In this document: positions 12,288 through 37,587 of the stretch, piece by piece | Layout: each line of letters starts with the position of its first letter | Position numbering within the stretch: the stretch's first letter is position 1 | Assembly (NCBI GenBank): GCA_011634665.1 | Contig: WAEK01000014.1 | Span: 292,501 to 356,500 of the forward strand | From: Mortierella sp. BCC40632 | Taxonomy: Eukaryota; Mortierellomycota; Mortierellomycetes; Mortierellales; Mortierellaceae | Direction of reading: 5' to 3' | DNA length: 64,000 nucleotides | The notes under the pieces: generated by a model | The model's database searches: none | What the model was told of the DNA's origin: nothing | The model's input: the letters and a program-made list of their open reading frames with translations, nothing else | Position numbers and translations under genes: made by a program

Positions 12288-12832
12288 GGGAAAAGCGGGC
12301 GAAGGAATTTTACCCCCCGTAAAATTGAAAAATTACCCCCGTAAATATTTTGTGTACCCCCATTAAACACCCCCGTATCCGGAATATTCACCCCCCTCCC
12401 ACCCGTGAATTTTCCTTTTTTTTTTTTTTATTTTTTTTTATACAATGAGACCTCGGCCAATAGTCCACGACCTAGCCAAACAAACACTATCTAGAGACTA
12501 GTTTGTGCCTGCCGGTCTGCCACTGTTATTGTGGGTTAAACCCCACATCGGACACAGTCCGAAACACTAAGTCTCGATTGTGAGGGGGAGGCCCACTCTC
12601 CCGCCCACGGCCCATAAAGGGGTCATCATGCACGAAAAACACATGTGCTACCTCGGGCATGAACCGAGGACCTCTAGATTGAGAGGTGGAAGCTTTACAG
12701 CTAAGCTGAGGGGCTCGCCCGCCCACCCGTGAATTTTCCTGTACCCCCCCGTCAACCTTCTCCAAGATGAAATCCTCACCCCCCCGTCAACTCTCTCTCA
12801 ATTGACATCTTCACCTCCCCCCGTAAAAATTT
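12288..12832 (+). repeat. MULE left terminal inverted repeat (split by SINE 1)
   Basis: C-rich repeat with multiple CCCCCGT blocks. Bases 12740-12832 are the reverse complement of 21826-21917, and 12349-12397 matches the reverse complement of 37554-37587. The SINE between them is flanked by an 18-bp duplication. Confidence 0.85.
12416..12721 (-). mobile_element. tRNA-headed SINE, copy 1
   Basis: Flanked by an 18-bp TSD (CCCACCCGTGAATTTTCC at 12398-12415 and 12722-12739). Read on the - strand it begins with a tRNA-like head: an A-box-like CAGCTTAGCTG, a hairpin CCTCT...AGAGG at the anticodon position, and a T-arm CCTCGG-TTCATGC-CCGAGG containing the B-box-like GGTTCATGCCC. These are expected to be internal RNA polymerase III promoters. 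A unique body follows, then a 3' part (12440-12527) closely similar to the LINE 3' end at 37415-37508, then an A-rich tail. It is probably mobilised by that LINE. Confidence 0.85.
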
Positions 12833-12991
12833 CTCTCTCTTTTCCCTTTTCCGTCCGAGTCAGAGTGCACAATATCCCGAGCACTGCTTGCGTCTGAGAG
12901 TCTCTTCTCTCTTCTCTCTTCTCTCTCATTTTTCATCTTTCATTTTTCATCCTCTCATCCTGCCAATATTAGTTTATTTTTTTTAAATGCT

Positions 12992-15874
12992 CTACTCGAA
13001 GTCGTCCTTCGTCTTTGGCTTTTTCCAAACGATTTCTCCCACACGTTTAGTGCGTGCCTTGCCTTTGCGTGATGTACTCCTCTTTCTTCTTCTCTCATAG
13101 CCTGTTTTGTACCTACGGCTGATTGGCCTTCCCTTGGTATGCGACGACACCCCATCAACAATGTCCTCCACAGGGATTCCTTTGAACAAGTCAGTCTCCT
13201 CGACAGAATCGCCATCATCTGCCTGTTTCAACTTCGCCCCGATGTTAGAAATAGAACTACTGTCATGATCGGGGCTGCCTCTTCCATCACCTTTGGACAC
13301 ACCCACATTTTCGATCTCGTTGGGCTCTGTCACTGTTGCACCATGCACCTCGTCTGAGTCTTCCGAAAGCGTTTGTACTGCTGGCTCTGTAAGATCTCCA
13401 TATCGCCCTGGGCCCTCCATTGAACCAGGGCCTTGGCTCCTTCGAGTTGAAGCTTTGACGAACGGCTCGTTCTTTGTCTTGACGTCAACCCTCCGATCTT
13501 CTCGGATACTCTCGTCAAACCATCGCCTGGGTATCATATTAATGTGGTATTCGAATCTATGGTCTACCTGCATCAACCAGAAGTAATGAGAGCACACAAA
13601 CCCTTTGGTAACAAGTAGGGCACAGGTGCAATGGTACGACTTGTTATCAAAAAGTGTGACGATTTCGGACTCTGACGATGTCTTACTTTCAACTGAACAT
13701 AGTACCAGAATACCCTCTCTTTTGGATCTTTCCATGCCATGGATCAGTGTAGAGACACAATGCTTTCGGATATTCAGGTTTCCGAACTATTTAATAAAAA
13801 AAAAAAAAAAAACGAAAAAAATGAAAAAACATTTGTTGAGTTAGAATGTTGCCAAGCAAGGAGGAAAGACATTCGACTTGGTGTAACTTACTATAGTTTT
13901 GGACCCGCGGTTTGCTCTCTCCTCCCTCTCCAAGTCTTGGTAACGCAGAGACTCATGGTAGAAGCCGAAAGAGAGTCCCATCTGGATTCTCAGCTCATTC
14001 ATGGCGTACCTCGAGAGGTAACGACTGTTTACCTTCAGAACAGATTCGAATATCGTGCCGATCATGTCCTGCGATATCCCAGGTTCCTGCTTGCTTGATT
14101 TGAGTCGATAGTACTCTCCACCGACTGCGTCACAGAGGGCATGAAAGAGTTCGGTCATGGAAGTTTTGCTGTTAAGTCCAAGGCCTTTGACTAGACTATT
14201 TGTTGATTCCACCCGTTGTGTCGATTTCATCCCTGCGGCAAAAACTGAATTGATCCAAGGACCTGCCCATTTAGACCGACGTTTGAAAAGTTTGACCAGG
14301 TATGAATCAATTTCAGATATGGGCTGGAGATCCTCATCTGTAGCAAGGGATTCAGAGTCGGTATCTTCGCGACCAGCGAAATCACGGCGTATTTGCCTCC
14401 AAATGCGCCTGAAGTTCTCCTCCGTTAAGACTTCGCGCGCTTGCTTCAGTCGATTCTTGAAGGCCGGAAACCTTTCGCCAAGAGCAGGTTGTAAATGCTG
14501 ACGAATCTTTTGGTTTAAATGCCATAAACAGTTCAAGACATGTGCCTTCTTGCCAAACACTTTAGAGGCTGCTGCATTCATGCCGTGGTGTCCATCCATC
14601 ATCATGACTCTTGGGATAATCCCATCGTTAGCCTTAATCAGCTGTGTGAAGATCCAAGAATAATCCTCTGTTGTTTCGGTGCGTATCAAGGCGCATGCCA
14701 CCAGTCGGGTCCGAAAATTCGCGTCGACAACAACCGTACAGTTGAGAGGCATTTGAAGCCGGTTTATCTTGTAGGTGGAATCGGCGACAACTACGTCAGA
14801 ATAGCGCCGATATGTCCTGCGTTGATCAGGAGTCATCCAAAAAAGATGTGTCAGAGTGTTGTCAGTAAATTGGGTTTCACAGTACCAGCCGTCGGCGCCC
14901 TTGTGTTTGCTCCTCTCTTGGTTCAACAAAGTGAGGAGTTGATTCGTCTGTGTCACGCCAACATTACGGTTCTCCTTCCTGAAGGCCTTCAGTCTGCTTT
15001 CCACCTTCGACTTGTCAAATTTATGCTTGGGATACTCGCTCTCCAGGAATCTCATTGTTGATCCGATTGGAAGTTTCGCCCCAGCGCACTTCTTAATAGT
15101 GTTGAGTACTTCGTCTGTGATCTTGTGGAACTCTCTCAACTTTGTATTCATCTCGTGATCGTTGTGGGTGAGGTACAGAGTTGTGATATGCCATTTTGGA
15201 TGTAAACATCGTGGACTGGTGATGTTGATGAAAAACGGGCAATTGCAGCGCCGCGATAGTGGTTTGTTGTGCCGGTTCGTAACATCGGGGGTTTTTTTGG
15301 ATTCGTATGTCCCCTCATAATAACAAACTATCTTAGCTGCGTGATTTGGGTGGTTTATGTTAGCCCCTTGTTCGCATGAATGCTCTTCAAGTTTTGGCTT
15401 GACCAAGATTAAGCACCTACCCGAATTGTAGTCAGTTCTTTTGGCTCTGACAGTGAATCCAATGTTCTCTGCCCATATATCGATTGTTGCTCTTGCTACT
15501 AAGTAACTCTCAAACTGATATTTGGCTTTAGGTGTCCATGTTGTCGTAACACTATCGCGCACTTTGCTGTTGTCATCACTGACTGAGATTTCTGGACTGT
15601 GGCTGCAGCTGTCTTGGCTTTCATCACTCCAACCACCACTGCCTTGACTGTCATTTTTTTTGCCATTCCCGTAATATCCTTTGAAATCCCAACTGTTTTC
15701 GTATCGACCACTATCATAGTTGCAGCCACCATCAAAATTGTCGTCACCGCGCCTGTCATTGCGGTGTCTGTCGAAATAGCCATGGTACTTGCTTCTCTGG
15801 CGGCTGCTTTTATGGCGCCTATTATTATCATTGCGGGGGTTGTGCTGTGTGTTTAGGGCAGAGCACTCTTTCAA
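12992..15874 (-). CDS. MULE transposase (FAR1-like, DDE, SWIM)
   Basis: Two exons, 15874-13892 and 13786-12992, joined across a GTAAGT...AATAG intron with a frame that continues; about 925 residues. Counted from 15874, the order is: RS/RD-rich N-terminus; FAR1-like Cys/His region (SRRCNCPFF...HNDHE) around 215-250; MULE catalytic domain with D365 (VVADST), D427 (MMMDGHHG), the CLWH motif and E556 (QRVESTNS); and in exon 2 a SWIM zinc finger (CTCALLVTKGFVCSH), then a basic tail. All catalytic acids are present. There is no ATG before about residue 247, inside or after the DNA-binding region, so the N-terminus probably comes from the upstream Ulp1/RS exon by splicing (intron 15875-15932, one base out of phase as written). 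It would cut at the MULE inverted repeats. Confidence 0.85.
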
Positions 15875-15930
15875 CTGAAGCAGCGCAATAATAAGAATCG
15901 TCTCTCACTCTCAGTACCCAAGAAAAACTC

Positions 15931-17647: not shown

Positions 17648-17779
17648 TGGAGGAGTTCCATAGGCGTCTCGGAGTCAGCAGTGTTGGTGAGAGAGTAAAG
17701 GAATAAAAGTGAGGTCTTAAGCCGACCTTTTATTTAGGTGCAGTTAGTGATAACTATGCTGGAAACAGTGAATAGGTAA

Positions 17780-17906
17780 AACAAAGTGGAAAAGTAAGAC
17801 AAAGTGGAAAGTATGACAAAGTGGAAAGTATGACAAAGTGGAAAGAATGATAAAGTGGAAAGAATGACAAAGTGGAAAGTATGTCAGCGTGGGAAAGTAT
17901 GACAGC
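17780..17906. repeat. 17-bp tandem array between the divergent MULE genes
   Basis: About seven imperfect copies of a 17-bp unit (ACAAAGTGGAAAGTATG and variants) lie between the protease start (17647) and the zinc-finger ORF (18243). They sit in the shared upstream region of two divergent genes, so a regulatory or protein-binding role is possible but unproven. Confidence 0.8.
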
Positions 17907-18099
17907 GTTCCCCCTCCCCCCAAAAAATGATGGGGATTCTATGATATTTCCCATGCCTACTTTACAAGTTCACCCATTTCCTTCCTTCCCCCAGTCCCTT
18001 TCCCACTTCACTTTTCGCTTTCTAGATTATCTCCCAGTTCTCTGCCACCTTTCCGACATCTTTCTCCAGCCTCTTTTCAGCCTTTCTTCAAACTTCTCT

Positions 18100-18165
18100 T
18101 CAGTCCTGTCAAGTCCATTTCAGTCCTGTCGACTCCATTTCAGTCCTGTCGACTCCATTTCAGTC
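18100..18165. repeat. 20-bp tandem repeat upstream of zinc-finger ORF
   Basis: Three copies of CAGTCCTGTCGACTCCATTT (the first with AAG for GAC) within about 65 bases, 80 bases upstream of the ORF at 18243. Confidence 0.85.
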
Positions 18166-18242
18166 TTTATTTCTGTTTTATTTCCTTTTTGTCAATTGTT
18201 CATCTATCAACTATCTCCGTTGCACACTTTACACCTTAAAAT

Positions 18243-18866: not shown

Positions 18867-18966
18867 TATTGTTTCTTTTTGTTCTTCATTTGGTCTATTA
18901 AAAGCAGCTCCATGGTTAACAATGGCCCATGTGGGGCTTTTCAAAGATCAGGGGCGAGAGCTAGCA

Positions 18967-19080
18967 GTAGCTTTTTTTTTTTTTTTTTTGTTAACGAGGC
19001 CCCCCACGTGGGCATGCAGAATTTATGGAATACCAGGGCTACTGCCCCGTTGTCACTTGGGCCACAACAGGATCTAGTCC
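18967..19080 (-). repeat. 5'-truncated retroposon tail (copy 1)
   Basis: Read on the - strand: GTGGCCCAAGTGACAACGGG, then CTGGTATTCCATAAA, then CATGCCCACGTGGGG and a 17-base A-tract. The same sequence occurs at 19292-19366. Probably the 3' end of an unidentified LINE or SINE; no convincing TSD was seen for this copy. Confidence 0.5.
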
Positions 19081-19291
19081 TGCAAATAAACACTAAATAG
19101 TTCTACCTAATGTCCAGATACTCTGTTCGCCATCACCCACGTCGCATGAGTGGTCGTATTGCCAGCTCCCTACGTGGCCTGTTGCGCTCATTCGTCGTCT
19201 TTTAGCCGAGATCCATCGCTAACACCTTTTTCCAACTTCCCAGCCGCTCCATCACATCCAGCTTTTTCTTCCACAGGAATCTACTGCCCCG

Positions 19292-20801: not shown

Positions 20802-21280
20802 TGCGGTGTAGAGGATAAGAAGTCCCTGGTCTCGGATACTTGGCCGCTTCAAGACCCATGTCAGACAGATCCTCTCCTCAGCAACGAGGAGATCAAAAAG
20901 AGCAGTGAAGGTTGCGGTATGATAGACAAGCACCGGGGAAATGACTCTTACTGCTTGGCAGGCAAGTGATTAAACCATCTGCGAAAGGGGATCGCCATAA
21001 TGGCGGGAAATGAGGGAGGACATAACGACCGAGACGCGTATCACTGTCTCAAAGGAAAGAGAAAGAAAGGAACAAGGTAGCACAAAAGACTCGTAAATCA
21101 CACCCGAGGGCGCTGTCGAGAGGACCTGCTCCAGACGGTAAGTATTCAACTAACTGGTCAAGAAAAGAAAAGGGAAAACAAAACTTTCTTTATTGAGATG
21201 GCTGGAAGGGGTGCTTTTTAAGGCACCAGAAAAGGTCCCAAACGGCCGGAAGATCGCCTGGTTGCATTTACTACACCACA
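20802..21280 (-). mobile_element. Solo LTR H (4-bp-TSD family)
   Basis: Begins TGCGGTGTAGAGG and ends TACTACACCACA on +, flanked by GTAG at 20798-20801 and 21281-21284. It shares CCTGCTCCAGACGGTAAGT, GACGCGTATCAC and ACTACACCACA with LTRs G and E, but is longer and diverged. There is no internal region, so it is a solo LTR left by recombination. Confidence 0.85.
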
Positions 21281-21825
21281 GTAGGGTTGAGAAAGGAAGA
21301 TGAGTGAAGGTGTTCGGTCGAAGGACAAATTGGGAAAGCAGAAAAGATGAACAGGCTTCCTCAGCTTGCTCTTTTATTCTCGCATCACAGTTTGGCAACA
21401 TCGGACATAAACCAAGAGGAGGGGGACGAGGAAGGAGAGGAACGAAGGTTGGGGGTGAGAATGACACAAAGAGGGTGGCGATTAAGCGACGACGAGGCGA
21501 CGACGAGGGTGGCAAAGAAAGGACACTGGGAGAGTAGAGGTTTAGTTTGATAAATGTTGACAGGGGGAGTCATGGACAATTGACGTTGACAGGAGGTTCA
21601 GCATTTCAGATAAGGAGAGCCAACCTGCCTAGAAACGAATTACTTTAGTGTTGTTGACATGCTACAGACGTAAGGGAAGAGAGGAACTCGCAACAACTTA
21701 GTTGTTTTATTCCGCTACTCTGTCGCTAGATCTGGTTTAAAAAAGTTCGTGAGAAAACCCATAAAAAAAAGAGAGAGAACCAAAACATACCAGAATAGTA
21801 GCTGGCAGTGCCTTTCTGGCTTCGA
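21281..21825. other. MULE interior, nothing recognised
   Basis: About 545 bases between solo LTR H and the right MULE inverted repeat. No coding or RNA signature is seen; the + strand is purine-rich. Confidence 0.4.
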
Positions 21826-21917
21826 AATTTTTACGGGGGGAGGTGAAGATGTCAATTGAGAGAGAGTTGACGGGGGGGTGAGGATTTCATCTTGGAGAAG
21901 GTTGACGGGGGGGTACA
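21826..21917 (-). repeat. MULE right terminal inverted repeat (inner part)
   Basis: Reverse complement of 12740-12832 with very few differences. It continues after the LINE at 37554-37587, where the DIRS element interrupts it. Confidence 0.85.
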
Positions 21918-22059
21918 GGAAAATTCACGGGTGCTCCTTTCCCTCATACCACTCGTGTCACAAAGAGTGGGAAAATATTCAATACGAAAAATAGTACTCT
22001 GTCCAAAAAACAGCGCCTTTGGGTACTCATCGAAAACTCGGGTGACAGCTTTCTTCGTT

Positions 22060-23815
22060 ATGGGCCCCGGATCGAAACGGAAGGGGGTGCCATCTTCCTC
22101 TCCACCAATACCGTCGGGAGGAGGAAACAAAGTAACAAAAACCACCAATGTCGGAGTACGTACCAGAAGTGGTGCGGGAAGTGGACCTCAATCGAATGCA
22201 CTCAACCTTTCTCAATCTCTACGACATTCCTCTGACGTTCTCAATGCTTCAGAGGAGGAAGACAACATGGATCTAGATGGTGACGAAGACACCTCTGTGA
22301 CAAGGGAATCGTCTCAAAAGAACACAACATTTTCAGAGGAAAATATTTTTGCAGGATCATCTCAGGTGGAGGGCGTATCTGGTGAAGAGTTTGAGGATAT
22401 GTCGTCTGAGATTTCCATCGAGGAGCTGCCAGATCCACAAGAACATTGGACCACTGTCACTACTAGGAAGAGAGGCTTCATGATGCGCATTCCTGCCAAA
22501 CACCTTTATGGTGATACAGACAGAGAAAGACTGACATCGTTGACTAAAGACTTAAGGCAACAAGTTGATCTGATTCAGAACCCACGAATGAAGATAGTCG
22601 AAGGAATATCTTATGCCTATTTCATGGTTCGACACCAAGGCAATGTCGACACCCTTGCGCAATCACCTTTTGCCAGCTCAAAAAAGGCACCATTGAGACG
22701 CCGCTCCACGTCTGCTTCGAGTCTGTCTCTGAAAAGGATCTGATGGACATCGCCAAGAGAACTGTTCATATTGCGAAACTGCCCACAAAGATGCACAAAG
22801 ACCAGATCAAGGGAGCACTCTCCATCTTTGGCAAAATCGAGAGTATCACTGACAATGTTGATCGTCGCGGAAAGTCAAGATACTTTATTGTCACTTTTCA
22901 ATCAGAACAAAGCATTGGGAACCTCCAGGAGTCCAATGGTACTATGGTCATGGTGGGCAATCACATGGGCCGAATCAGCGAAATAGGGGGGGTAGCCGAG
23001 TAGACTGGAACAAGGAATGTACGGTCACACTGACACACTTGCCCAGAGGATGCACTCAAGCCGACCTTGCATTCTTAGTGGTCCAACACGGAGCGACATA
23101 TGTTCACGTTCCTTGGAAACTTGGAGAAAGGGATAGACACCGACACGCACACGTGTATTTCCAAAATGAAGAGGATATGAAACATGTCACATCATTGAGA
23201 TTCAAGATTAGACAACAGGAAACGGCATGGACTGATAACGCCCAGACGTGCTGTTATTATTGTGGGGCTACCGGACACAAGAAGGCAGAGTGTTCGCAAC
23301 GTCTCACTGAGAGAAACCATGCTGAAATGAGGGCATATGCAGTCAACGGTTTCCGTCAGGCTTCACGGCCATCATTACCAACAAGACGTGTTGTAAAAAA
23401 AGATGTGTCTTACAGCGCTGCTGTCACGAAACAACAAGACTTTCCCCCGTTACCGGCTACCCCAAAGACAAGGCAGCACTCAACAACAACGGGTGTCAAA
23501 GCAACTCACTCGCCCCCACAATCTGAAACGCCTAAAAACGGGCATACAGTTAACCAACTGGCGGCAGACGTGGAACGATTGAAGAGTGCAATGAAAGAAC
23601 ATGCTCTACAGAACCAGATTATACACACTAAGCTAGAGGAGCTCACTTCTACTACCCAAACCATCCTACAAGCTCTAACACAGCTACTGGAAAATTCAAC
23701 TTCAACAGTGTTGTCAAAAGCTGTTAATCAGGTGAATTCGATTCATGCTCACCAAGGAACGAACACATCTATACAGCAGAAGGAACCCCTTATTCAGCGT
23801 CGCCAACATGAATAA
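22060..23815 (+). CDS. LINE ORF1 (RRM-like, CCHC zinc knuckle)
   Basis: Start chosen at ATG 22060 (MGPGSKRKGV), the first ATG of the frame inside the LINE. The N-terminal 220 residues are acidic/Ser-rich. After a frameshift near 22720 comes an RRM-like stretch (VHIAKLPTKMHKDQIKGAL, then YFIVTF), then a further shift near 23000. The last part (23039-23815) has a zinc knuckle CYYCGATGHKKAEC, a linker, and a coiled-coil-like region (LAADVERLKSAMKEH). Such ORF1 proteins bind LINE RNA in a ribonucleoprotein. The stop (TAA 23813-23815) overlaps the ORF2 start ATG at 23808 by eight bases, suggesting coupled translation. Confidence 0.8.
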
Positions 23816-25060
23816 CGAACAAGAAACCACTAGCAACTGTCTCTTAGATTGGGATAACGATAGTTACGAGACAATGGATTTCAATATCCTACCAACATGG
23901 GACAACGAAATGGAGGGTGATGAAGTAATGGATGAAGTGAGAAGGGAGATGGAGTCAACTACGATCTCGGAACCTGCCTACCTGCAATATGTTAGTTCGC
24001 TGGAACAAATGATGAAACCTAGGAGAAAGAATGAGGCAGACAACGATGTAGCGAGGAGCGTGCTCACTGTAGCTACTCTCAACATCAAGGGAGGCAACAA
24101 TAATCATACTATTGAGGCCATAACTTCATGGATGACAATTTTGAATGTCAATGTGGTAGCTTTACAGGAAACAAACTTGGATTCAAGGAAAGCAAAAGTT
24201 CAAAATCCCAGTAACTGAGAATTATCATGGTTACTGGCCTCAAAAGCTACCACAAAAGAGAGGAGAAGGAGTAGGCTTCTTAGTCACAACATTCTGGCAC
24301 AGACATGTCATAAGACGATACGAGGACGAGGATAAACGAGGAATGGCAATGGACTTTGCGTTTCGAACTGGACACACAATCCGAGTCATTAACGTTTACT
24401 GGCCTCCAAGCATGGCAACTGAAGCCACGAGGGCTATTGGGGTGAGACTGGAGAAATGGGTCGAGGGGTTGATGGATGATGCAGAGGACAAAGGATACGA
24501 ATATATTCTACTCGGAGACTTCAATGCCGTGATGAATCCGTGGATTGATCGTAGTACGGGAGAAGGGCGGTCTACCCCCCCGGAAAGCTCACTTTTACAA
24601 AAATGCAAAGAAAAGAATCTCTATGGTACTTTCCGAGCTACATTTCCGTCGGCAGCAGGATACACCTTTGCAAATGCAGGGAGATCTAGTCGAATCGACT
24701 ACATCTTTTTATCGACTACTCTAGTGCATAAAGTGGTCAGCGAAAGTGTTCGCATAATTTTGAAATTGCAGCACTTTTGTGATTACTCCCTGTTCCAAGA
24801 CACAGTGCTATCGCAATTGAAAGAAAGGGTTGTCTGGCCGTTGGGTTTCATTCCGGTTTCATCTGTGACAGGAATCTGCTCAGCATGATATCAAACCATG
24901 ATTTCAAAAATATCCAGTCCATTCATACACTTTGTTTGAAATAGCATTCTTTTCACCTCCGCTTCTCTTTCTCAACCAACTCTTTATCTTTCAGCACGGC
25001 TCCTCAGCACTGTATTCTCCTCTCCTGCTGTTTCAATCATTAACAGAACACCAATCCAAA

Positions 25061-26453
25061 ATGAGACGGCTCTCCCAAGAAAAGATCAACAATGTCAAGA
25101 CTCTTCTTCGACACGGAAGGTCGATCCGTCGGGTGGCAAATGAGCTTCATATCTCCCTTGCAGCTATCGATAAGATCAGGAACGAGGACAAGGAGAATAT
25201 TCCTGATCCGATAATAGGTCGTCCTAAGAAAGTTTGCGATGCCACTAGGAGGATGCTTATTCGCCAAGTGGACAGTGGTCAAATTTCAACTGTTCTCGAG
25301 GGAAAGCAGCTCGTTCTTGGAACAGACGGAGTTGACGTTCACATAGAGACAATCAGGAAGTATCTGAAAAAAGATAGTCTCTATTCGTATGTCAAGCGCA
25401 AGGAACTTTATCTGACGAAGAAGCACAAGCAAGATCGAGTCCGGTTTGCCAAGGATCACTTGCACTGGACGGTGGAGGACTGGAAGAACGTTATGTTCTC
25501 CGACGAGACTGTAGTTAGTAGGATTGGGTCCTACGGAAGGAAGCACTATTACTCTCGAAAACGAAACAAAGGCAAGCGAGAACATCACAAGATAGGAGTT
25601 CCACAGGGTGGAGGAGGGAAAATTATGATGTGGGGTTGCATTACATTTTTTGGCGTAGGGGACTCCGAGTGGATCAAGGATAGGATCAATTCGCAAGTGT
25701 ATCTGGAGATACTCGATGACTATTGCGGCGTAGAGGACCAGCACAGGGGGAAAGAGCTCGCACTACTTGGCAGGCAGGTGTGTGAAACCTATTGGGAAAG
25801 GGGATTGCCAGCATAGAAGAGGGAAACATACTGATCACGACGCGTATCACCGTTCTATAGAGAGAGAACAAGGCAAGAGAAAAGACTCGCAAATGAACAA
25901 TATCTAGCTACAGGATCGCACCCCCGGGGCGGGCGGACGAGTGGACCTGCTCCAGACGGTAAGTATTCACAAACGGATCGGGAAAATAAAAGGAAGAAAA
26001 CAAAAACTGTCTTTATTGTCTGGTGTCGAGGGACACCATTTATACCCCCTGGCCCAGGGGCCAGAAGATCGCCCAGTCGTATTTACTACACCACACTATG
26101 TAATCGCTTCTCGCAACTGGTGGCAAATGGACGCTGCAAGTTTTCTTTTTCAACAGGACAACGCCAAAGTTCATACTGCACGTATTATCCAAGACTTCTT
26201 CAGACGCAGAAGAATTCGACGACTTGAGTGGCCTGCAAACTCTGCCGACCTCAACATCATTGAGCATGTATGGGCATACATCAAAAGGGCTCTGGATAGA
26301 TACGAAACGACTGCACCAAATCTACAGACCTTGTGGGAAAGAATCGATCATATCTGGGGATCGATCCCAGATGATTTCCTCCATTCATTGTATGAGAGTC
26401 TTCCTAGTCGAATGGAGAAAGTGATACGACTGAAAGGGTGCCAAATAAATTGA
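25061..26453 (+). pseudogene. Tc1/mariner transposase, split by solo LTR G
   Basis: ATG at 25061. The N-terminus has a helix-turn-helix (NVKTLLRHGRSIRRVANEL) and a GRPKK hook. The DDE catalytic domain shows D1 in VMFSDETVV, the GGGKIMMWGCI block, D2 in FLFQQDNAKVH (after the LTR insertion), and E in SADLNIIEHVWA (DD34E-type spacing). The ORF is otherwise open from 25061 to 25723 and from 26100 to its stop at 26453. The solo LTR between residues ...EILDDY and VIASRNWW inactivates it. It would have catalysed cut-and-paste transposition into TA. Confidence 0.85.
25724..26095 (-). mobile_element. Solo LTR G (4-bp-TSD family)
   Basis: 372 bases, TGCGGCG...CACCACA, flanked by CTAT at 25720-25723 and 26096-26099. 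It is near-identical, in reverse orientation, to the LTRs of element E. On the - strand it holds a TATA box (GGTATAAATGG) and AATAAAG. It sits inside the transposase of Tc1 element 2. Confidence 0.92.
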
Positions 26454-29400
26454 AACTAGAATTGGTCCGACTCCATCAAACAAAAAGTGTAGTGATTCAA
26501 ATAAAGTGTTCGAATGGAGTGAAGAAATAGAGGGTGTTTATATCTTGACCAAATCTTTTTCAAATCGATTGACATACAGCCAAAATAGAGACCATCAGCC
26601 AAGCAATCTACCATTTAAAAAAGAGAATCGCATAAGTTAAAATGAGCGAGGGAGGAAAACTGATATAGCAAAACAGAAAACATGCGAACACTTTCGCTGA
26701 CCACTATAGATGTACTCAAGTGTCACTTAGTGATGAACGAGATAAGCAAGAACTTAAGGCTATCGGGACAGACCATCAACTACTTTGTTGTACCCTCAAT
26801 GTAGCCTCATGGTTACAAGTCGGTATTGCAAAGGAAATCTCAGAAGCAAAACGGATGGCGTGTTCGAGAGTCTTTGACTACAAGCGCCTGAGTAGCGAAA
26901 CATGGGAGTCATTTACCCAGGAGTCGGAGGAAAGATTTGTGGCTTCGTCAGTTATCAATACTTTGGCGAATGGTACACTGGTGGATCAAGATATCGATAT
27001 TGACTATGTATGGGACAGCTTTGCGATGACTATGTTGGAGTCAGCACGCAATATCATACCTATGCGAGTCCGTGGGTCAGGACCATCCATTCCGAAAGTG
27101 GAAATCATGGAGGCAAAAGCAATTCGCGATCTTGGCCAGTTAAGGTACATTGTGTCCCAGTTTTTGGAGGACCATGAAGGCATTGATAAAGTGCGACAGG
27201 TATACGATCGCTGGCACAGGAGATGGTATGATCGACTTCCATATATTACTAATCCCCCGTCACAGACAGAGGAGAAGGAGGAATGGGAACAATGGAAAAG
27301 AAACATCACAGATATATGGAGAGACCTTCAGAAACATCGACGACGTAACAAGAAACAACAACTGACAAATATTATTAGACAGCGTATTGATGAAAGATGT
27401 GAGCGATGGGCGAAGGACCCATCAGTGACGCTAAAAACAATATTGGACATTCAACGTTCTTTCGTTGTCATTGACAGGGTTATCCAAGAAGACAATGGTC
27501 GCAACGTGCTGATTGAGAGACCAGATGATGTTAAAGGCGCTGTGGTCCAGTTTTTCACAAAATGGCATAGGGAGAGGCATACGAAGGTTATACCCAGAGG
27601 GTCTTTCTGGGAAAGACAGTATCAGCCTATTGAGAATATCCAAGAGTCGTGGTACGATGGACTTATGGACCCGCCTTCAGAGGAAGAGGTACAGGAAGCG
27701 GTTGCAAGGTCACCTCTTAACAAAGCTACAGGGGTCTCTCAAATCAGCAATGAAATGTTCAAACACATGGGTCCCACGGGTAGATATGTTTTCCGACTAT
27801 TGATAGCGCAATGTTTATCCCAACGGAAACTCCCAGTGCAGTGGAAGACAGGCCTGATTTATTGCATTCCAAAGACAGAGGTCTGGTCTGGGGAGCCTGG
27901 ATGATGTTCGACCTATTACTCTGTTGGAGCACGGACGCAAGATCATGTTTTCCATCCTCACAAAAAGGCTTACAAAAGTTTTTTGAGCGAACATCACATA
28001 TTGCAGGGCAACAATTTCTCGGTGCTCAAAGGTACCTCGACCAAGGATGTATTATACTCACTACAGGCGATGATGGAGGATGCAAGGGAAAACAAAAAAC
28101 AACTTTGGATCACCTTCCAAGATATGAAACGCTGTTTCGACTCGGTCTCATGCAAACCCAACGGAATGTTGGAAATGGCTTTTCGCCGCATTAAGATTCC
28201 TGAGTCTTTCATTGCTCTATGTGCCGATATTGCCAATACAAAACAAAACAGGATCATCACCGCATTTGGGGTGACGGACTCATATCAGCCTGCTTGTGGG
28301 ATTGATCAAGGAGGTGTAGAGTCCCCATTGTTCTGGAGGATTGCATATGATGTGCTTCTTTGTGCTGTTCAAGAAAGCAACTTTGGTTATATTCTAAACC
28401 GGCGGGATATACCAGAGCGATTTCAAGATTCCTGGCAGACTCGTGGGAACAGAGATATCAAGGTCCCAACACTCGCGTTCGCTGACGACACTACGTGGTT
28501 AGCTGATACTAAAACGGGAATGCAAGGAATATTGGATATTGCGACATCCTTCTTTGAGGTTCATGAAATTGAAATCAATGTCAAGAAGACAGTTGTTCTT
28601 TCATTACACAGCGCTGAACCAAATGCACCAATCTATTTCGGTAGACCCAGGACTGTCATTCAACCACTTTCAAATCAAGAAAGCACTCGAGTTTTGGGAG
28701 TTTGGGTTGCGCGGACCAAATCTATCGAAGACAAAGGAACGATGGACATCGTAAATAAGGAACTGTCGTTGGTTCTCGACACAATTCGAAACAAAAAGAT
28801 AACTGACAAGCAGGCAGTGTACATAATCAACAATGTACTTCTACCTAGGATTGTGTATCGCTGCACACTTACGGTGTTATCAGCCAATCAACTCTCAAGT
28901 ATCACAGCCCGGTATATGGCTGTTTGTCGGAACAAATGTCAACAGTCTAGAGAACTTCCAAGTGCAATCATGCATCACCCAAGGTGGTATGGGATCAGGC
29001 GTATAGAGGATTTGCAGGCGGAGGAGCAGCTTAGTTCTTTCTGGATCCGCATCAATGACATTGGCCTGGCAGGACAGTTATCGCGAGCAAGGCTAATGGC
29101 ATTACAGTATCGACAAAGGTTGCAATTTTGCCCTCTGAACCAGCCGGGCATAATAATGACAGCTGAACCGAATAACATGATACAGAGTCTTTTGAAAATT
29201 ATGCATGAGAGAGAGATCTCCATGGCATTCACTGGTAACGGTGCACAAGACACAGTGGAGGCGACCCCAATACTTCCACCAGTGGATCATATCGATATCT
29301 TCCCTAGTACACAGCGATTTTATCATCTTGTGGCCTTGGAGGAGAAGGCGATGCAGTTATTTCAGGCACCGATGGAGGAACACTCACAAGAACAACACGC

Positions 29401-31061
29401 CAACAACTGTATTATATACGGGCCAGAGCTACCTATTTCGGCTAGCTTGTCCATTCAACATGCTTTATCGGAATTCGGAAAATACCAAGAGGCGTTGCTG
29501 AGGACTAAATTGTGGACTATCGATCAAGTTCTCTCTGAAGACCAGGGAAAGCTACTTGAGTGGATTCCCCTCCGACGCAAGTTGGATATAAGGGGTAATG
29601 TGGGTCGAAACTGGTATAAAGATATACAGAGGGAACTTACTGACTCAACAGAGGAGGTACATTCGTACCAGATCAATATCAACAAGCTTGACGACAAAGC
29701 AAGAGGTGTTTTAGTGAATCCAGTTTCCGCATCACTACACTGCAAAGTGATGCAGTCTATTGATGGAGTATGGATGCCGACCGAAATGGCAAATCTTGCC
29801 AGACGACTGAAGGAGGAACCACCAGTCGACACAAGATTGGAACTATACACAGACGGATCTTTAAAGGATAGAGGCTCCCATGGAGTGAAGATGGCTTTTG
29901 CGTGTATCCGTGCACCGGAGCGGCAGCGTCGAGCGATCTCGGGACGTGTGGATGGCTATGCATCATCGACTAAAAGCCGAGTTGTACGGACTCCTAGGTG
30001 CATTGGTCTCAGTGCCTCAAATGCAGGATATCACGGTGTACCTAGACAATAAGGGGGTCGTCGATAAATTCCAAACGTTTGTGCAGGAAAGAGAGAGTCT
30101 CACGATACGACAGAAACTGAGATGTAACTTTTACAGAGAATGGGCAATAATCCATGCTGTAGTTAGAAGACGCACCGGACATACCATGGTGACATGGGTC
30201 AAGGGTCACTCAGGGATTCAAGGCAATGAAATTGCCGATCGGGTGGCAAGTGCAGCTCAGGAGAGAGATACACCATCTTTCCGACTAGATATGAGACAGC
30301 AAGTTGACATAATGTTCCAGGTTTACTTTGGGGAGAAGATCGTTGACAGTGAATTCCGGAAAACACTTAGAATGCAGTCGTGTAGACGAGCACATTCTGC
30401 TTGGCTATCGTCGCATAGAGTTCAACGTGCAATTCGCCCCCACACGTCTCGACATCGATTGGTTGGCAACACACGATCTTATTCATGACGGCATCCCAAT
30501 GGCGACGTGGATGAGTTCGTTTAGGAACAGCCAGCGTCGAACGTTCAATATCAAACGGCTTCATGACTCACTCCCAGTAATGTCGGTAATGTTCAACAGG
30601 TATCCATACACATATCCTGACGACAACTGCAGATTATGTCTCGATGATATTGAGGATAACGACCATCTTTGGCGTTGCCCGGTAAAACCGTAATGAAAGA
30701 AAGAAGATCTGGCAGGAAGTTCTAGCTTCGGTAAATACTGTCGGACTCTCGGTGACCAGGAAGTTTAATGACAAGTACCCGGAGCGAGAAACAGCTGTTT
30801 GGAAAGAGTTCACATCGTTGCGGACCACGATGATGGAGAAGCTAGTGGGACTAACGGAAACCCTCACAGACGATGATGCACCAGACAGGGAACGTGGGTA
30901 CAGGGTCAATAGAGATTGCTGGACTGTTGAAGACTTTTATCGTGGGATCATACCAAAGTGGTTGACAGATGTGATACGTCAGGAAGCAGACGTTCCTCGG
31001 GAGGTGGCAAGGAAGGTAACACTTACTCTGTGCCAGAACATTGCGGATCGCGCATATGAAC

Positions 31062-31135
31062 TGCAGCAGTATATAAATACCTCTCACCACCCTCTAATAA
31101 ACGGCAGTTCATTCTCAACCATCGTTCCTGTTATA
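31062..31135 (+). repeat. 5' LTR of Ty3 A (74 bp)
   Basis: Begins TGCAGCAG and ends CTGTTATA. In 74 bases it contains TATAAATA (positions 10-17) and AATAAA (positions 35-40), a compressed promoter and poly(A) signal. Identical to 36993-37066. Confidence 0.9.
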
Positions 31136-31336
31136 TGATAGCAAAGGAATTTTTTTCCACCCCTGACACCCTGAACATTACTTTTCAAGTTGACCTCCCC
31201 GTCGCCCCCCCGTCTTCCCCGTCCACCGCCCTAACCCTGTCCCCTGCTCTCTCCCACACCCCCCACCCCCCTACCAAACGACCCCCCTGTCCCTCTCGAC
31301 CCCCTGTCCGCCGCATTCGACCGTTTGTCTATCACC

Positions 31337-32278
31337 ATGTCTACCGTTGCTCCCACCACACCTTCACATAAGTACCCCCTTCCAGACAAATTCAAAGGAG
31401 GTCGCGATGGATTTTCTGCACAAGCATGGTTAAAAAGCGTTAGACGCTACCTCCTCGCCACCTCCGTCCCCGAGAACATCCAAACAATTGTCGCAGTTTC
31501 ACTTTTGGATGTGGACGCGGCATGTTGGTTCGATGGATCAGGATTGAGCGACACTGCCTCCTTCATAGACTTTGAGAAAGACTTCTCCGAGATGTACATC
31601 CCTGCCGACTTCACACGCACCATCCGCTCCAAGTTGTTCAACCTACGAATGACTTCTACTGTCGAGACCTATGTTACCGAGTCAAAAAAGACTTCTTACT
31701 GCCTTACTGACCGAAGCTAAAACCGCCGAAGTCAGAGCTGATATCGAGAATACGGCCCACATCAGATTTGTCGATGGCTGCCCTAAAGCTCTCCAACAAC
31801 TCCTGGAGGCCTTGTTCATCTCCAAGGATCTCTCTGTCTACGAGCTCTTCGCTGCAGCTGAGAAGTTCGACCGAATCTACAACTTCCAACCAGACCACGC
31901 TGGTACCAAAAGTAAGAATACAACGAACACCCAACCTTCTGTCGTTGCTTCCAACTTCCAGCCCCAGCACCAATCGCCCATGGCCATGGAAGTGGACAAT
32001 CTTCGGTTCGAGATTAATGCCCTCAGGAAGGAAAATAATAGGCTCAAGCAAAACGGCAATAATCGTCAGAATAAAACAGGCCTCAAACCCCCCTCTCCCC
32101 TTCTGAGCGCCAATGGTTGCGAGACAATAACGGCTGCTTCAAATGCCGTGAGTTGGGTCACCATCAACGAGATTGCCACGTCAACAAACCCCCATCCCGG
32201 CCCGCAAGACTAAACAACATATCGGTTAATGAGGACTCCTCCCCAGAGTCGGGAAAAGTCTCCGGCAATCAGGATTAG
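31337..32278 (+). CDS. Ty3 A gag (frameshifted)
   Basis: ATG at 31337 (MSTVAPTTPSHKYPLPDKF). The capsid-like region includes WLKSVRRYLLA and FEKDFSEMYIPADFTRTIRSK. A run of six A near 31685 (five in copy B) shifts the frame. A CCHC zinc knuckle CFKCRELGHHQRDC is encoded near 32130-32175 but again out of frame. By comparison with copy B the natural stop is TAG at 32276-32278 (after GNQD). Gag would form the virus-like particle and bind RNA. Both shifts may be homopolymer errors in the sequence. Confidence 0.75.
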
Positions 32279-35200
32279 TCCAGGACCTGATTGCCGATGC
32301 CCCCCCCTCTTGTTCTCTGGACAGGGGAGTGTACTAGTTCCAGAGTTAAGTTGTAGTTCTTCTGAATTAAAAATTAAGCTCCAAAACCAAAACACTTCCC
32401 CTTCGAACATTCCTCATGCATGTAAACTTTTCAAAGAATCTGACGACAGTTACTCCGACCCTGTCACACCTACCCGTACCACGCCAACCACCCTTCTACC
32501 TAGGTCGATTGAGGCAGTGGACCTGGACCCATCTGACCCCTCTCTCATCTCTAGAACCGCCGTGGCCGCGCGCGCCATTCGCTTACAATCGGCTACATCG
32601 AACAGCACGACAAATACACTCCTCACCTTTCTTGGCAAGATCGATGGCTACTCTGCTCGCATCCTCATCGATGGAGGAGCAGAAGGAAATGTACTCAGCA
32701 ATACCTTTCAGGAACGCCATTCTCTTCCCCTCCACCCTTGCGCTGCCATTCCAGTTATTCTGCCGGATGGCTCTGTCTCAGTCATAAACCATGTTTCCAA
32801 CATAGTTTTATCACACAAAACTTATTCGGCCAACCTGGAACCGATCCTTTATCCACTACAAAACTATGACCTTATTCTCGGCAAACCTTGGCTAGCCCTC
32901 GTGAACCCCATGATCAATTGGCGCACAAACGAGGTGAAGTTTAAATCCAACGGTCGCGATATTCATTGGATATGCAACGACAGACTAGACGGCCTCAAAG
33001 ACAAGAGCCCCAATCATGGTAACAATCATTGCAAACGAGTCAACGCCATCAAGTTCTGCAATATCGTCGCTCTTCCGGGTAGTGAATTATTTATTGCAAA
33101 ACCTACAACCGATCCATGGGTCAAACAACCCCTCCGATCTCTCCCCTGAGGTTGCAGCAATCATCCAAAACGAGTTTGCCGATGTCTTTCCAACATCCCT
33201 TCCCTCGGGACTCCCACCTGACCGAGGGGACGCCATGAAGATAGAGACTGATCCAATGGCTGACCCTCCCGTTCGACCAGTCATCCGATTGTCCATTGCC
33301 GAACTAGATGAGCTCAGGAAGCAACTGGACGATCTTCTAGAAAAGGGTTTCATCAAACCTAGCACCTCACCATTCGGCTCACCTGTACTTTTGTTCGGAA
33401 AAAGAGGGGCACACTACGTATGTGTGTCGACTATCGAGGACTGAATCAGATCACCAAGAAGAACAGACACCCTCTACCAAGGATCGATGAGCTTATCGAC
33501 CGCCTTCAAGGAGCACGATATTTCTCGAAACTGGATCTCCTCTCAGGTTATCACCAACAAAGGATATTCGAACCACACACTCACAAAACTGCCTTCCGTT
33601 GTCGATATGGTCATTTTGAATGGAACGTGATCCCCTTCGGTCTGACTAATGCTCCTGCCTCGTTCTCTGCCATGATGAGAAATGTTCTTCACCCTGTTCT
33701 CGACAAAAGTGTCATTTCATATCTTGACGACTTACTCATCTACTCCAGGACAAAAGAGGAGCATCTTCAACACATTCGAGAGGTGCTGGCGTTATTAAGA
33801 AAAAATCAACTCTATGCAAAACTGAGCAAATGCTCATTCATGCAGAAACAAACAGAGTTCCTTGGCCACACGATCACGGAAGAAGGAATACAAATCAGTG
33901 CTGTTCACATCAAAGCCATCCAGGAGTGGCCCCGCCCTTCAAAGCAAAAAGACGTCCAACAGTTTGTAGGACTCGCACAATATTGTCATCAAGGTGTCAA
34001 GGACTTTGCCGAGATCGCCCTTCCATTGACCAACCTCCTAGGAAACAAGACATCCTTCTGCTGGGAGGATGAACATGAAAAGGCTTTTATGAGACTCAAG
34101 AAGGCCATCACATCTGCCCCCATACGACGAATATTCGACCCTACACTGACGACTATTGTGGGAGCGGATGCCTCTGGATTTGCACTAGGTGGATATCTCG
34201 CCCAAACGGATAGACAAGGTGTGACCCGACCTGTCGCATTCACCTCACGGAAATTGAACAGTGCCGAACGCAATTACAGAACTCATGAGCAGGAGCTGCT
34301 TGCGATCGTGCACGCCCTCAGGACTTGGAGGTACTACCTAGATGGCACCAAGTTCACAGTCTACACCGACCACGATACCTTGAAACACTTCTTGACACAA
34401 CCCAAACTCACTGGACGCCAGGCGCGGTGGATGGAACTACTACAGGAATATGATTTCGAAGTAAAACACAAACCTGGAAAAGAAAACATCATCGCAGACG
34501 CCCTCTCACGCCGCCCCGACCACCAGGAGGAGGAGCCGAAGACGATAAACAACCTGGAAATCTCAATGGAACCAAGTGTGAGACAACGTCTAATAGATGG
34601 GTACTCAGAAGACCCCCGTCTGGGCCCAATCTATGCAAGCTGCTTAGAAGGAAGTTGCCCAAAAATTATGCCTTGTACAAGGGACTGTTATGTATTGAAC
34701 ACAAGGGCGTTTATCTGATCTGCATCCCTAGCAAAGCCGACATCCGCCTTGACCTTCTCCATGATGCCCATGACTCTGCTATTGCCGGCCACCTCGGGTT
34801 CGACAAGACTTACGATGCCCTCCGACGCTCTTTCTACTGGCCTCGAATAGCCAATGATACCAGGCGTTATGTTGAATCTTGCGAAAGCTGTCAAAGATCC
34901 AAACCCAGTCGACAAAGGCCAGCCGGCTTGCTCCATCCACACGAAACCCCCGAACAGCGCTGGGATACAGTGACTATGGATTTCGCGGTTCATTTGCCAA
35001 AGACGGACCAAGGATTTGACGCGATCACGGTGTTTGTGGACAAACTCTCTAAACAAGTTCACTTCGCCCCTTCCAGGACCACAGACACAGCATCAGACGT
35101 CGCCCGTATATTTTTTAATAATATCTTCCGACTACATGGCATGCCTCGCAGGATCATCTCAGACCGCGACAGCAAGTTTACGAGTAACTTTTGGCAGGAA

Positions 35201-36042
35201 CTTCACCGCCTCATGGATGTTAAATTAGCATTGTCGACCGCTTTCCACCCGCAGACGGATGGTCAATCCGAACGGGCTATCCAGACCCTTACATCTGTAC
35301 TAAGGGCTTACGCGGACGACAAGCAGACCAACTGGGACGTTTTATTACCGGCAGCCGAGTTTGCTTACAACAACTCTGTTAACCCCACTACAGGCTTCTC
35401 TCCTTTCTTCATGAACTACGGATTCCACCCACGTGTTCCAACCGCACTGCTACAACCACCAACATCATCAGTGCCAAGCGTGGAAGACTTTGTCAAGGAG
35501 CAACAGCACGTATTGAAGACGACACAGGAGAACATTCGCCTCGCTCAAGAAAGACAAGTGTGGAACTCCGACCATAGACGACGCGACCATGATTTCAAAG
35601 TAGGAGACAAGGTTATGCTGAACGCTGAAAATATCACCTTGCCCAAGGACAGAGGAGTTAAGACCAGAGCTCAGAAGCTACTTGCTCGATTTATTGGACC
35701 TTTCACTATCATCGAACAACACTCCCCCGTTACCTTCCGTCTTGAGTTGCCGCCGACTTACAAGATCCATGATGTTTTCCACGTGGACAGGTTCCGACAC
35801 TACCACGAGTCACCCGAAGAACTTGGACAGCGAGCCCCACCTCGTCCAGACCCTGAGTTGATCGACGGCGAGGAGGAATATGAGGTAGAGAGAATTCTCA
35901 ACTACCGCTTGTACCGTAGACAACACCAGTTTCTCGTCTTATGGAAAAGGATACAACAACGAGGACGCAACATGGGAACCGGCCCGCAACCTCGACCACT
36001 GCAAGGAGACTGTCGACAGATACAGGGAAGAACATGGATTGG

Positions 36043-36049
<7 letters not shown>
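32229..36049 (+). CDS. Ty3 A pol: PR, RT, RNase H, integrase, chromodomain
   Basis: Order: aspartic protease (ARILIDGGAEGNVL, about 32655); the conserved YDLILGKPWLALVNP linker; reverse transcriptase (FSKLDLLSGYHQ, ISYLDDLLIYSR with YLDD near 33725); RNase H (TTIVGADASGFALG, VYTDHDTLKHF); integrase zinc domain (HLGFDKTYDALRR...CESCQRSK) and DDE core (MDFAVHLPK, IISDRDSKFTSNFW, FHPQTDGQSERAIQT); then a chromodomain (EYEVERILNYRLYRRQHQFL). The chromodomain is cut short by one extra base near 35945 (copy B reads WKGYNNEDATWEP). Frame changes near 33100, 33400 and 34660 look like single-base indels. An A-tract of about 34 follows the pol end. Confidence 0.88.
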
Positions 36050-36077
<28 letters not shown>

Positions 36078-36256
36078 TCATCTTTGGCATCATGTGATGA
36101 ACCTGGCATCAATCAGAAATCGACATGTCATCAGGATGCCAGGACCAGATATATATAAATTATGAATGGATGCTGAAATCGACAAACCTCTCTCTCTTCT
36201 CTCCTCATCAACCTCACCACCCTCACCACCACCAAAAACACACACACACACACACA

Positions 36257-36966
36257 ATGGCCGCCCCCTCCCCAAAGACAGCTACCCCCGTCCCAAAGAC
36301 ACCTGCCCCCCCGTCCCAAAGACGCCTGCCCCCCCGTCCCAAAGACACCTGCCCCCCCACCCCAACGACTCCCCTCCCCTGTCCCAATGACGCCCTCCCT
36401 TCCACCCTCAAGGACGACCAAACCACCCTCCTCAGTGCCAGCGCAGGCACAGACCAGGCCACAGCAGCCGACCCCGCAACAACCGCACCAACGACTGGGG
36501 CAAGGCGACTCGGCACTGTCGGCAGAGGAGAGACAATGGAATTACTTGAGGGACACACGACATATGCGCAAACCGTTGTCTTTCGAAAGGTTGATGCTCG
36601 CCATCGAGGATGAGTTAACATTCTCAAGAGCCATGGCTATGAGGTTCGAAAAGACTTGCGACACTGACATGGACAAGGCTGGGGTGTTCTCTCGAGAAAT
36701 GCAGCAAAGCAAAAAAAGGAGAGCAGAGTATAACGACCTTGCGCTGATGTATTTTCCGGAACAGGTGGATACAAAAAAGAGTTCGCAAAAACCGCTCGAC
36801 GACATGCAAGGATCAGCAACGCGAACTTTTGGACAAACACGTGGAGGCATACATGGCCAACACCTCCCTGTTCAGGGAACTCTTCGTGAGAGAAGCGGAC
36901 CATACTTCTCACGCGCCCCCACCTAACCAACAACCAGAGAACCCTCCCCAGAGCCGTAGTAATTAG
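36257..36966 (+). CDS. Ty3 A third ORF (unknown), behind a TATA box
   Basis: Lies between pol and the 3' LTR. A TATA-like AGATATATATAAATTATG (36145-36162) and a CT-rich then CA-rich leader precede ATG 36257. The first part is Pro-rich with repeats of CCGTCCCAAAGACACCTG. After one frameshift near 36390 the frame encodes DSALSAEERQWNYLRDTRH, RKPLSFERLMLAIEDELTF, MRFEKTCDTDMDKAGVF and KKRRAEYNDLALMYF, a charged helical region; by comparison with copy B the stop is 36964-36966. The same ORF is present in copy B. I recognise no family. It is not envelope-like (no signal peptide or membrane segment), and its own promoter is inferred only from sequence. Confidence 0.6.
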
Positions 36967-36992
36967 ATAATTTTTTTTTTTAAATGGGAAGG

Positions 36993-37066
36993 TGCAGCAG
37001 TATATAAATACCTCTCACCACCCTCTAATAAACGGCAGTTCATTCTCAACCATCGTTCCTGTTATA
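36993..37066 (+). repeat. 3' LTR of Ty3 A (74 bp)
   Basis: Identical to 31062-31135; followed by the TSD TGAAC. Confidence 0.9.
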
Positions 37067-37587
37067 TGAACACATTTGGGTCCCTCGCTGTAAAGAGGTC
37101 GCAAGATGGGAAAAGGAAAATAGAATCACTGCTGGTCAAAAGCGCAAGAGATTTAGACCAGAAGAAGCCGAAGAAAAAGAGGAATGGTCAAGATGGTACA
37201 AAGGTGGCTTTAACACGGATGGTTTGATGGACCTCTGTGACTGTGGCGAACGACTTCAAGAGCACGTCCATGACCGCTGTCCAGGCAGGCACGGAAACGA
37301 AGCAGGAGGGGAGATGCAGCTCTCCGGATGAGTCTCCTGGGGGGAGACTACAGCCTCTTTCATGGAGAAGATGGGAGGGGTTGTCCGTTGGGGTTTCTAG
37401 AGGGAGAACGTGTAAACAGTGGCAGATTGGCAGACACAAGATAGAGCTTCTCTTTGTAGTGTTTGTTTGGTTAGGCTTAGAGCTAGTGGCCGAAATCTCA
37501 CTGTATAAAGCAGCAAAAAAAAAAAAAAAAAAAAAAAGGAAAATTCACGGGTGGGAGGGGTGAATATTCCGGATACGGGGGTGTTTA

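Follow-up and report, generated by a model that had tools for sequence, protein, structure and literature searches.

The stretch of DNA analyzed here (the window) comprises 64,000 bp of contig WAEK01000014.1 from Mortierella sp. BCC40632 (positions 292,501 to 356,500 of the forward strand). It contains a Mutator-like element (MULE) whose two terminal inverted repeats (TIRs) carry a short interspersed element (SINE) on one side and a long interspersed element (LINE), designated LINE-A, on the other. These two inserts share a 3' RNA tail and probably represent a SINE/LINE pair that strongly favors other mobile elements' termini as insertion sites.

The MULE locus and its inserts

The MULE combines long TIRs with a MULE transposase domain (Pfam ID PF10551; E 1.6e-18), encoded on the minus strand by an open reading frame (ORF) at 13841..15904 that is open as it stands. 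The inner part of the left TIR (12724..12833) is 100% complementary over 110 bp to the inner part of the right TIR (21824..21933), and its outer part (12312..12399, start approximate), lying outside the SINE, matches the outward right TIR. The left-hand insert, SINE 1, occupies 12416..12723 on the minus strand, with an A-tail at about 12416-12439 (T on the plus strand), a LINE-like 3' tail with a three-helix RNA fold at 12440..12527, and a tRNA-like head at the 12723 end. It is flanked by the target site duplication CACCCGTGAATTTTCC, found at 12400..12415 on its 3' side and at 12724..12739 on its 5' side. LINE-A is flanked by GGAAAATTCACGGGTG, at 21918..21933 on the 5' side and at 37538..37553 on the 3' side. 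GGAAAATTCACGGGTG is the complement of CACCCGTGAATTTTCC, and these four 16-bp copies are the only exact ones in the window. Since the 16-mer is shared, the TIRs are complementary, and the MULE transposase lies between them, SINE 1 and LINE-A must have entered at one and the same nucleotide of the TIR, and both face the same way with respect to it; the initial annotation had claimed a common site in both TIRs, and the 16-bp duplications bear this out. No clear target duplication of the MULE itself was seen in the flanks read.

LINE-A extends from 21934 to 37537 on the plus strand, with a complete 5' end and an A-tail; its extent in the initial annotation is corrected here: its first base is 21934, and two later insertions, a Tc1-like element and a long terminal repeat (LTR) retrotransposon, break it up. 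Without these inserts, its length is about 7.6 kb (by subtraction). A second copy was read in L010/L099/L020. An upstream ORF (22862..23815, plus strand) shows a weak CCHC zinc knuckle (PF00098; E 0.006, below cut-off). The apurinic/apyrimidinic endonuclease (APE)-type part (24160..24888, plus strand) matches PF03372 (E 3.5e-8, which passes the cut-off) and PF14529 (E 7.8e-7), and its frame runs into the Tc1-like element (24730..26708, plus strand, borders approximate, ends read; PF01498, E 5.8e-13). The reverse transcriptase (RT) part (27905..30052, plus strand; PF00078, E 6.8e-16) matches R2 structures in a search against protein structures (best E 1.7e-10). The LTR retrotransposon (31062..37069, approximate, plus strand), with identical 77-bp terminal repeats, is nested in the 3' part of LINE-A and is followed by the LINE-A 3' tail (37415..37508, plus strand), which has the same three-helix RNA as the SINE tail. 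LINE-A thus shows the RT, APE-like endonuclease, A-tail, and target site duplication expected of an APE-type LINE, and named relatives of its protein include those of Entomortierella parvispora and Linnemannia elongata. The LTR retrotransposon is found in two inverted copies in the window (31062-37069 and 49732-55755), 98.7% identical over about 6 kb, with protease, integrase, and SH3/chromo-like matches and terminal repeats of 77 to 84 bp. A repeat of about 375 bp has four copies in the window (25724-26096, 43342-43718, 46204-46574, and 20912-21283), three of them 97 to 99% alike and the fourth 68%; one lies within the Tc1-like element.

Outside LINE-A, the right TIR (37538..37589) is interrupted by a DIRS-type retrotransposon and resumes past it at about C14:356842, some 340 bp beyond the window end (sequence read there). 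SINE 2 (37623..37938, minus strand) had been assigned to the MULE repeat but actually lies in the outer terminal repeat of this DIRS-type element, itself inside the MULE right TIR. Its duplication AAGACTTT is found at 37614-37621, within the outer end of the DIRS-type right terminal repeat (37590..37622), and again on its 5' side at 37939..37946. An inner arm at 38130..38188, in the internal complementary region (ICR), carries the same core motif and is empty. The body of the element (38235..43146, minus strand) encodes an RT (41686-43146; RVT_1, E 7e-27), an RNase H-like domain and a Dam domain (39219-40187; Dam, E 5.6e-7), the RNase H assignment resting only on the DNA_pol_viral_C match (E 1.3e-8), and a putative tyrosine recombinase (38235-39158) with a weak match, below cut-off, to NDC10_II (E 0.0048). 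The termini of the element are inverted repeats, and the ICR is complementary to each of them. A full copy contains four instances of the core GGTCCTGGCCCC...GGATAAT, one at each end and two in the ICR.

The SINE and the 3' tail shared with LINE-A

Genome-wide searches covered an assembly of 49.9 Mb in 62 contigs, in which repeat counts are lower bounds. The SINE has at least 52 matches, of which 32 are near complete and fall into 19 places, with flanks read for all 32; this count leaves out tail-only rows, locus L028, and locus L032, which was removed because it gave no SINE match. The element is short and dispersed, with target duplications and an A-tail. Its copies are nearly identical, and because the mean substitution from the majority sequence is only 0.19%, its spread appears to be recent. 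The initial annotation described it as a tRNA-derived SINE. The predicted fold of the head does contain hairpins resembling the D, anticodon, and T arms (z-score, -1.2), which makes a tRNA nature plausible, but the head scores only 12 bits against the Rfam tRNA family (threshold, 29), and ARAGORN found no tRNA in the window or in three loci, so that tRNA ancestry is only suggested. An Rfam scan of the window at gathering thresholds gave no match. A sequence at C16:1267953-1268155 (L028) is 84% identical to the SINE head but has a different 3' end; it could be either an older SINE or a SINE with another partner.

The tail of about 92 nucleotides (nt) aligns between LINE-A (37415-37506) and the 3' part of the SINE with a local score of 78 and 72 of 91 letters identical (79%; 78% for the second LINE-A copy), compared with a mean of 17.7 (standard deviation, 2.4) and a maximum of 32 in 1,000 dinucleotide shuffles. 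When the SINE and LINE tails are folded separately, one common structure results, in which a closing stem opens into two hairpins, with z-scores against shuffles of -2.7 and -1.1, respectively; given the latter value, the case for the fold is carried by covariation and not by the stability of single sequences. The alignment used for this purpose contains 10 tails, namely, one from the SINE, two from LINE-A copies, and seven from related LINEs (the 5'-truncated L037, the diverged L035, and further near-duplicate LINE-A and SINE copies were dropped). In it, 96.2% of 289 cells pair, and six pairs are changed on both sides, in 17 cells. The covariation score is 0.259, and none of 500 shuffles reaches this score, the 17 cells, or the 96.2%. 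RNAalifold recovered 29 of the 30 pairs unaided. Compensatory changes include AGACC/GGUCU in the SINE versus AGAUU/AAUCU in the LINE and GGUC/GACU versus GGCU/AGCU. The SINE and the LINE thus share a covarying three-helix RNA tail, which upholds the earlier claim of tail sharing, and recognition of the stringent type is likely, as the tail is a conserved RNA fold.

Target sites across the genome

All 32 near-complete SINEs are found near the ends of mobile elements or repeats: DIRS-type elements at 15 places, MULEs at 3, and another repeat at 1. The right end of the DIRS-type element, in its outer arm, has received 20 SINE copies at seven places at GGATAA^TAGGCTAAAGTCTT, and a diverged DIRS subfamily carries three SINEs at the same position. 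Five SINEs are at the DIRS left end, at GGA^TAAT, with duplications that extend into different outside DNA each time; at C8:643k, another DIRS left end faces the used site from the opposite side. Three more SINEs are in MULE TIRs. Downstream of the SINE at locus L016, the first ~71 bases recur at 33 other places with 79 to 96% identity, the matches ending at query positions 62 to 77, and four fetched copies show the empty site; since this similarity stops about 72 bp on, the L016 SINE is likewise near the end of a repeat. The A-tail is directed outward, relative to the element that supplied the target site, at each of the 19 places. This distribution lies far outside what uniform insertion would produce, with a log10 P of about -84 (18 of the 19 places, L016 left out; the number of 20-bp sites was roughly estimated at ~43).

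A search with the first 500 bp (5' end) of LINE-A gave full-length matches at three loci, all listed at 100% identity: the window copy, C14:1304748, and C12:1571112 (a partial match at C9:1912666, covering positions 31-361 at 95%, was left out). All three copies with a complete 5' end are at the target, one in a MULE TIR and two at DIRS right ends (for the C12 copy, both ends only were read). The broader set of LINE-A tails at ≥93% identity includes 11 members, without a 30-base piece at C7:1392152. Seven of them are at transposon ends: two in MULE TIRs, two at DIRS right ends, two at diverged DIRS right ends (L019 and L053, read on the 3' side), and one (L031) about 66 to 70 bp inside the end of a Tc1-like element. 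The positions used range from the very end (DIRS left) through ~37 bp inside (DIRS right), ~66 to 70 bp (Tc1-like), and ~72 bp (L016 repeat) to ~100 bp (MULE). A target copy, 8 to 16 bp as read, flanks every one of the 32 SINEs as well as the three LINEs whose 5' end is complete. The initial annotation offered strong target preference as one of two options, which these counts support; the meeting of a LINE and a SINE, regarded there as an unusual single-locus coincidence, turns out to be the rule for this pair genome-wide.

A search with the TIR pattern, which could miss copies with indels in the pattern, found two MULE copies, one in the window and one at C25:187-197 kb. Empty MULE repeats were looked for among their four TIRs and none was found: the inserts are a SINE, a LINE, a SINE plus a truncated LINE, and a SINE, the two right TIRs being occupied by different elements (a LINE and a SINE). 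By our own count, which includes the truncated LINE, these amount to at least four independent insertion events, although the two left-TIR SINEs could descend from one event. A seventh pattern match, at C3:547462, has three mismatches and was set aside since its flanks are not those of a MULE.

Many of the inserts form stacks, with eight SINEs in a row at L012, three at L013, and five followed by a LINE at L010 (L099, L020). Other stacks are mixed, with a LINE followed by a SINE at L026 and a SINE followed by a truncated LINE at L022. After every unit comes a target copy, in either the long form TAGGCTAAAGTCTT or the short form AAAGTCTT. At L012, the target on the DIRS side has a T-to-C change (GTCCT) that is present in five internal target copies, whereas the far-side copies read GTCTT, a pattern consistent with successive insertions next to the DIRS side once the T-to-C change was present.

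By coordinate counts, inserts are found at 5 of 16 DIRS left ends (including C8:643874, which used the facing end of the diverged subfamily) and in 6 of 23 outer or unpaired arms (without the window copy, whose extra A escapes the pattern). The diverged subfamily has inserts in 4 of 15 arms, each arm belonging to a different element. In a hand tally, 6 of 7 occupied DIRS right ends lie at the end of the element with the higher contig coordinate and 7 of 8 empty ones at the end with the lower; contig orientation being arbitrary, this bias is probably due to chance.

L090 (C27:178293-179003) is a single-copy A-tailed insert in a DIRS outer arm whose end, TTGTATAAAAGCAAAA, resembles the SINE/LINE end; a genome search for its parent retrieved only L090 itself, which is possibly a retrocopy moved by the same machinery. 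L065 (C5:2267675) is an A-tailed insert that abuts the same DIRS target and derives its 3' ~160 bp from a repeat that also has inverted copies. In L034 (C10:1287639), a LINE-A tail is fused to upstream sequence like that of L065 and followed by a 3' flank, TCTAAAGTCTC, that resembles the DIRS target; it looks like a template-switch chimera.

Interpretation and relation to known systems

The distribution of these elements is best described by a SINE/LINE pair that strongly prefers to insert at the termini of other mobile elements and that stacks by repeated insertion, a reading to which we assign a probability of roughly 0.78. According to this model, based on sequence comparison, the LINE RT would recognize the three-helix RNA that the LINE and SINE transcripts both carry at their 3' ends. 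The LINE endonuclease would make a single-strand nick at one of a small number of favored positions, located between the extreme terminus and ~100 bp inward in DIRS-type retrotransposons, MULEs, a Tc1-like element, and one more repeat, and reverse transcription would be primed at the nick. Because each insert is flanked by a target copy, the nick site is renewed, and its renewal leads to head-to-tail stacks of SINEs and LINEs in one orientation, with the A-tail toward the outside of the host element. The site preference might reflect direct recognition of several sequences, tethering to a host factor, or a chromatin or replication property of transposon ends. A choice made by the endonuclease, directly or with assistance, is ranked first since nick positions are nearly the same within a family.

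Several observations weigh against this reading. Four of the 11 LINE-A tails have no assigned transposon end (C25:206609, C9:2281669, C10:1287639, and C1:847456); the flank of the first is multicopy, and that of the C10 tail (L034) is partly like other loci. No 7-mer is common to at least three of the five upstream contexts (DIRS, MULE, Tc1-like, L016 repeat, and L040). Two 6-mers are (null mean, 1.2), and pairs of contexts share twelve 8-mers, including AGAAGGTT in DIRS and MULE, a number above the mean of mononucleotide shuffles but within their range (null mean, 2.5; maximum, 14). For the RNA tail, six pairs with changes on both sides are matched in 60 of 500 shuffles, which is not unusual, and neither is the number of further pair types (as high in 489 of 500). 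When partners are slid by 1 to 3 columns, pairing falls to 34 to 43%, but the structure was taken from the SINE fold, which favors it over the slid versions, and the tail sequences are related. Inside the DIRS-type element, the ~60-bp arm carries inserts in none of 13 inner arms and none of 13 ICR copies. Other tails are at least as close to the SINE as that of LINE-A: L029 (C6:1232173) matches at 80 of 90 positions (89%) and the sibling family L030, L036, L038, and L039 at 67 to 69 of 82 to 86 (80 to 83%).

The empty internal DIRS copies show that the core motif is insufficient for insertion. The difference between terminal and internal sites is significant in the Fisher test with the coordinate counts alone (P, 0.002) and with hand totals, counted loosely (15/48 versus 0/33; 2.2e-4) or strictly (15/39 versus 0/33; 2.3e-5). 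With identical contexts counted once, (A)AAGAAGGTTACACATATAT or a close variant lies directly upstream of every one of the 13 DIRS contexts in use. The internal contexts and two empty solitary right arms (L061 and L070) have other sequence upstream, and empty terminal sites carry the terminal form too. Given these different upstream contexts, recognition either reaches at least 20 to 40 bp upstream of the core or depends on position at the terminus.

L029 and the four sibling tails thus rank ahead of LINE-A in identity to the SINE (more distant tails, L050 and L048, have 71% and 75% identity to the SINE). The initial view of LINE-A as the probable partner is therefore only partly supported: the tail is shared, but a better match elsewhere in the genome, which the initial annotation had named as grounds for refutation, does occur. 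The true partner might instead be the LINE family of L029 or the sibling family, the LINE-A tail being shared by common descent. This is unlikely, if by no means negligible, because L029 is a lone tail that breaks 3 of the 30 structure pairs and whose next 6 kb shows neither an RT nor an endonuclease ORF, and the DIRS and MULE targets are absent from the 3' flanks of L029 and of the sibling tails, a family known here from tails and 3' flanks. LINE-A, in turn, has the same three target types as the SINE and lies in the same stacks. LINE-A is accordingly favored as the apparent present driver of the SINE, whose tail was perhaps borrowed from a relative of LINE-A; it may stem from an L029-like or sibling LINE and now be used by LINE-A. 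The near identity and regular spacing of the stack units would also be expected if the stacks arose by unequal crossing-over of one SINE-plus-target unit instead of serial insertion. That appears improbable, as the stacks are not made of SINEs alone (L010/L099/L020 includes a LINE whose 5' end is complete, L026 combines a LINE and a SINE, and L022 combines a SINE and a truncated LINE), the target copies within the L010 stack differ in length (AAAGTCTT and TAGGCTAAAGTCTT), and SINE start and tail variants are mixed within stacks; recombination that changes copy number may nevertheless add to insertion.

Two other explanations were considered. In one, nicks made by the recombinase or transposase of the host transposons serve as primers, independently of a LINE endonuclease that has no specificity. 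The assigned sites are indeed near the ends of elements with such enzymes and show a single polarity, but the insertion positions relative to the end differ among host elements (from the very end to ~100 bp), duplications of 8 to 16 bp accompany each SINE, and the LINE retains its APE-type domain, which makes this mechanism quite improbable. In the other, the SINE was captured once or twice and then carried as a passenger by a moving DIRS-type element and MULE. The SINE copies are almost identical, and at the seven DIRS right-end places the duplicated target is within the element, so that hitchhiking is conceivable place by place. Nevertheless, the duplications at DIRS left ends take in outside DNA that is different at each of five places, the right TIRs of the two MULE copies differ in their insert (LINE or SINE), and stack sizes, tail forms, and duplication lengths vary among DIRS copies. 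In addition, right-end arms with the terminal-type upstream sequence are empty in 8 cases and occupied in 7 (hand tally). Passive carriage is thus very improbable as a general explanation.

A more far-reaching version of the preferred model, in which the LINE machinery recognizes mobile-element termini as a class through a shared physical or chromatin property, not through any single sequence, and inserts with a fixed outward polarity, is put forward only tentatively and is more probably wrong than right; the ends of other transposons would then be a renewable safe haven and a stack would record the order of insertion. Repeatable nick positions, empty sites, internal decoys with the same core, and stacks of up to eight units are natural controls with which endonuclease or tethering specificity and the recognition of RNA structure in trans become testable. 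The pair might also serve as a model of a transposon that lives on transposons and may thereby spare genes.

Known LINE targets mostly consist of rDNA, snRNA genes, microsatellites, telomere repeats, and loose T-rich motifs. In Xenopus, the APE-type LINE Tx1L is found at a fixed place in the DNA transposon family Tx1D (a search on these names retrieved no paper). In contrast to Tx1L, the pair described here hits several unrelated host families, involves a SINE, and forms multicopy stacks. Target-specific non-LTR retrotransposons of the Tx1, R1, and restriction-like endonuclease (RLE) clades are described as inserting into rRNA genes, U2 snRNA genes, and microsatellites (PMC4640811); LINE-A and the SINE resemble them in having a fixed insertion site in a multicopy sequence but differ in that the targets are mobile-element termini. 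The main host has the RT, RNase H-like match, Dam domain, inverted terminal repeats, and internal complementary region of fungal DIRS retrotransposons (PMC3783388); however, DIRS is here the target and not the insert, and its recombinase ORF is weakly recognized. SINE/LINE pairs with a shared 3' tail are well established, including the fungal pairs Mg-SINE/MGR583 and SINE2-1_BG/Tad1-24_BG (PMC3747384). Like these, the present SINE is a nonautonomous element with a poly(A) end and a 3' part of ~90 nt that matches a LINE of the same genome. Unlike the pairs as described there, the partners also share rare target sites and are stacked in the same target, and the RNA fold is backed by covariation across sibling tails in one genome. 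Among the titles and abstract openings listed in searches of open-license papers, there was no report of a SINE/LINE pair that targets DIRS or MULE ends. In our reading, what is new compared with all these systems is that a single pair combines the use of several host element families with an outward polarity, targets that are renewed, and stacks of mixed composition.

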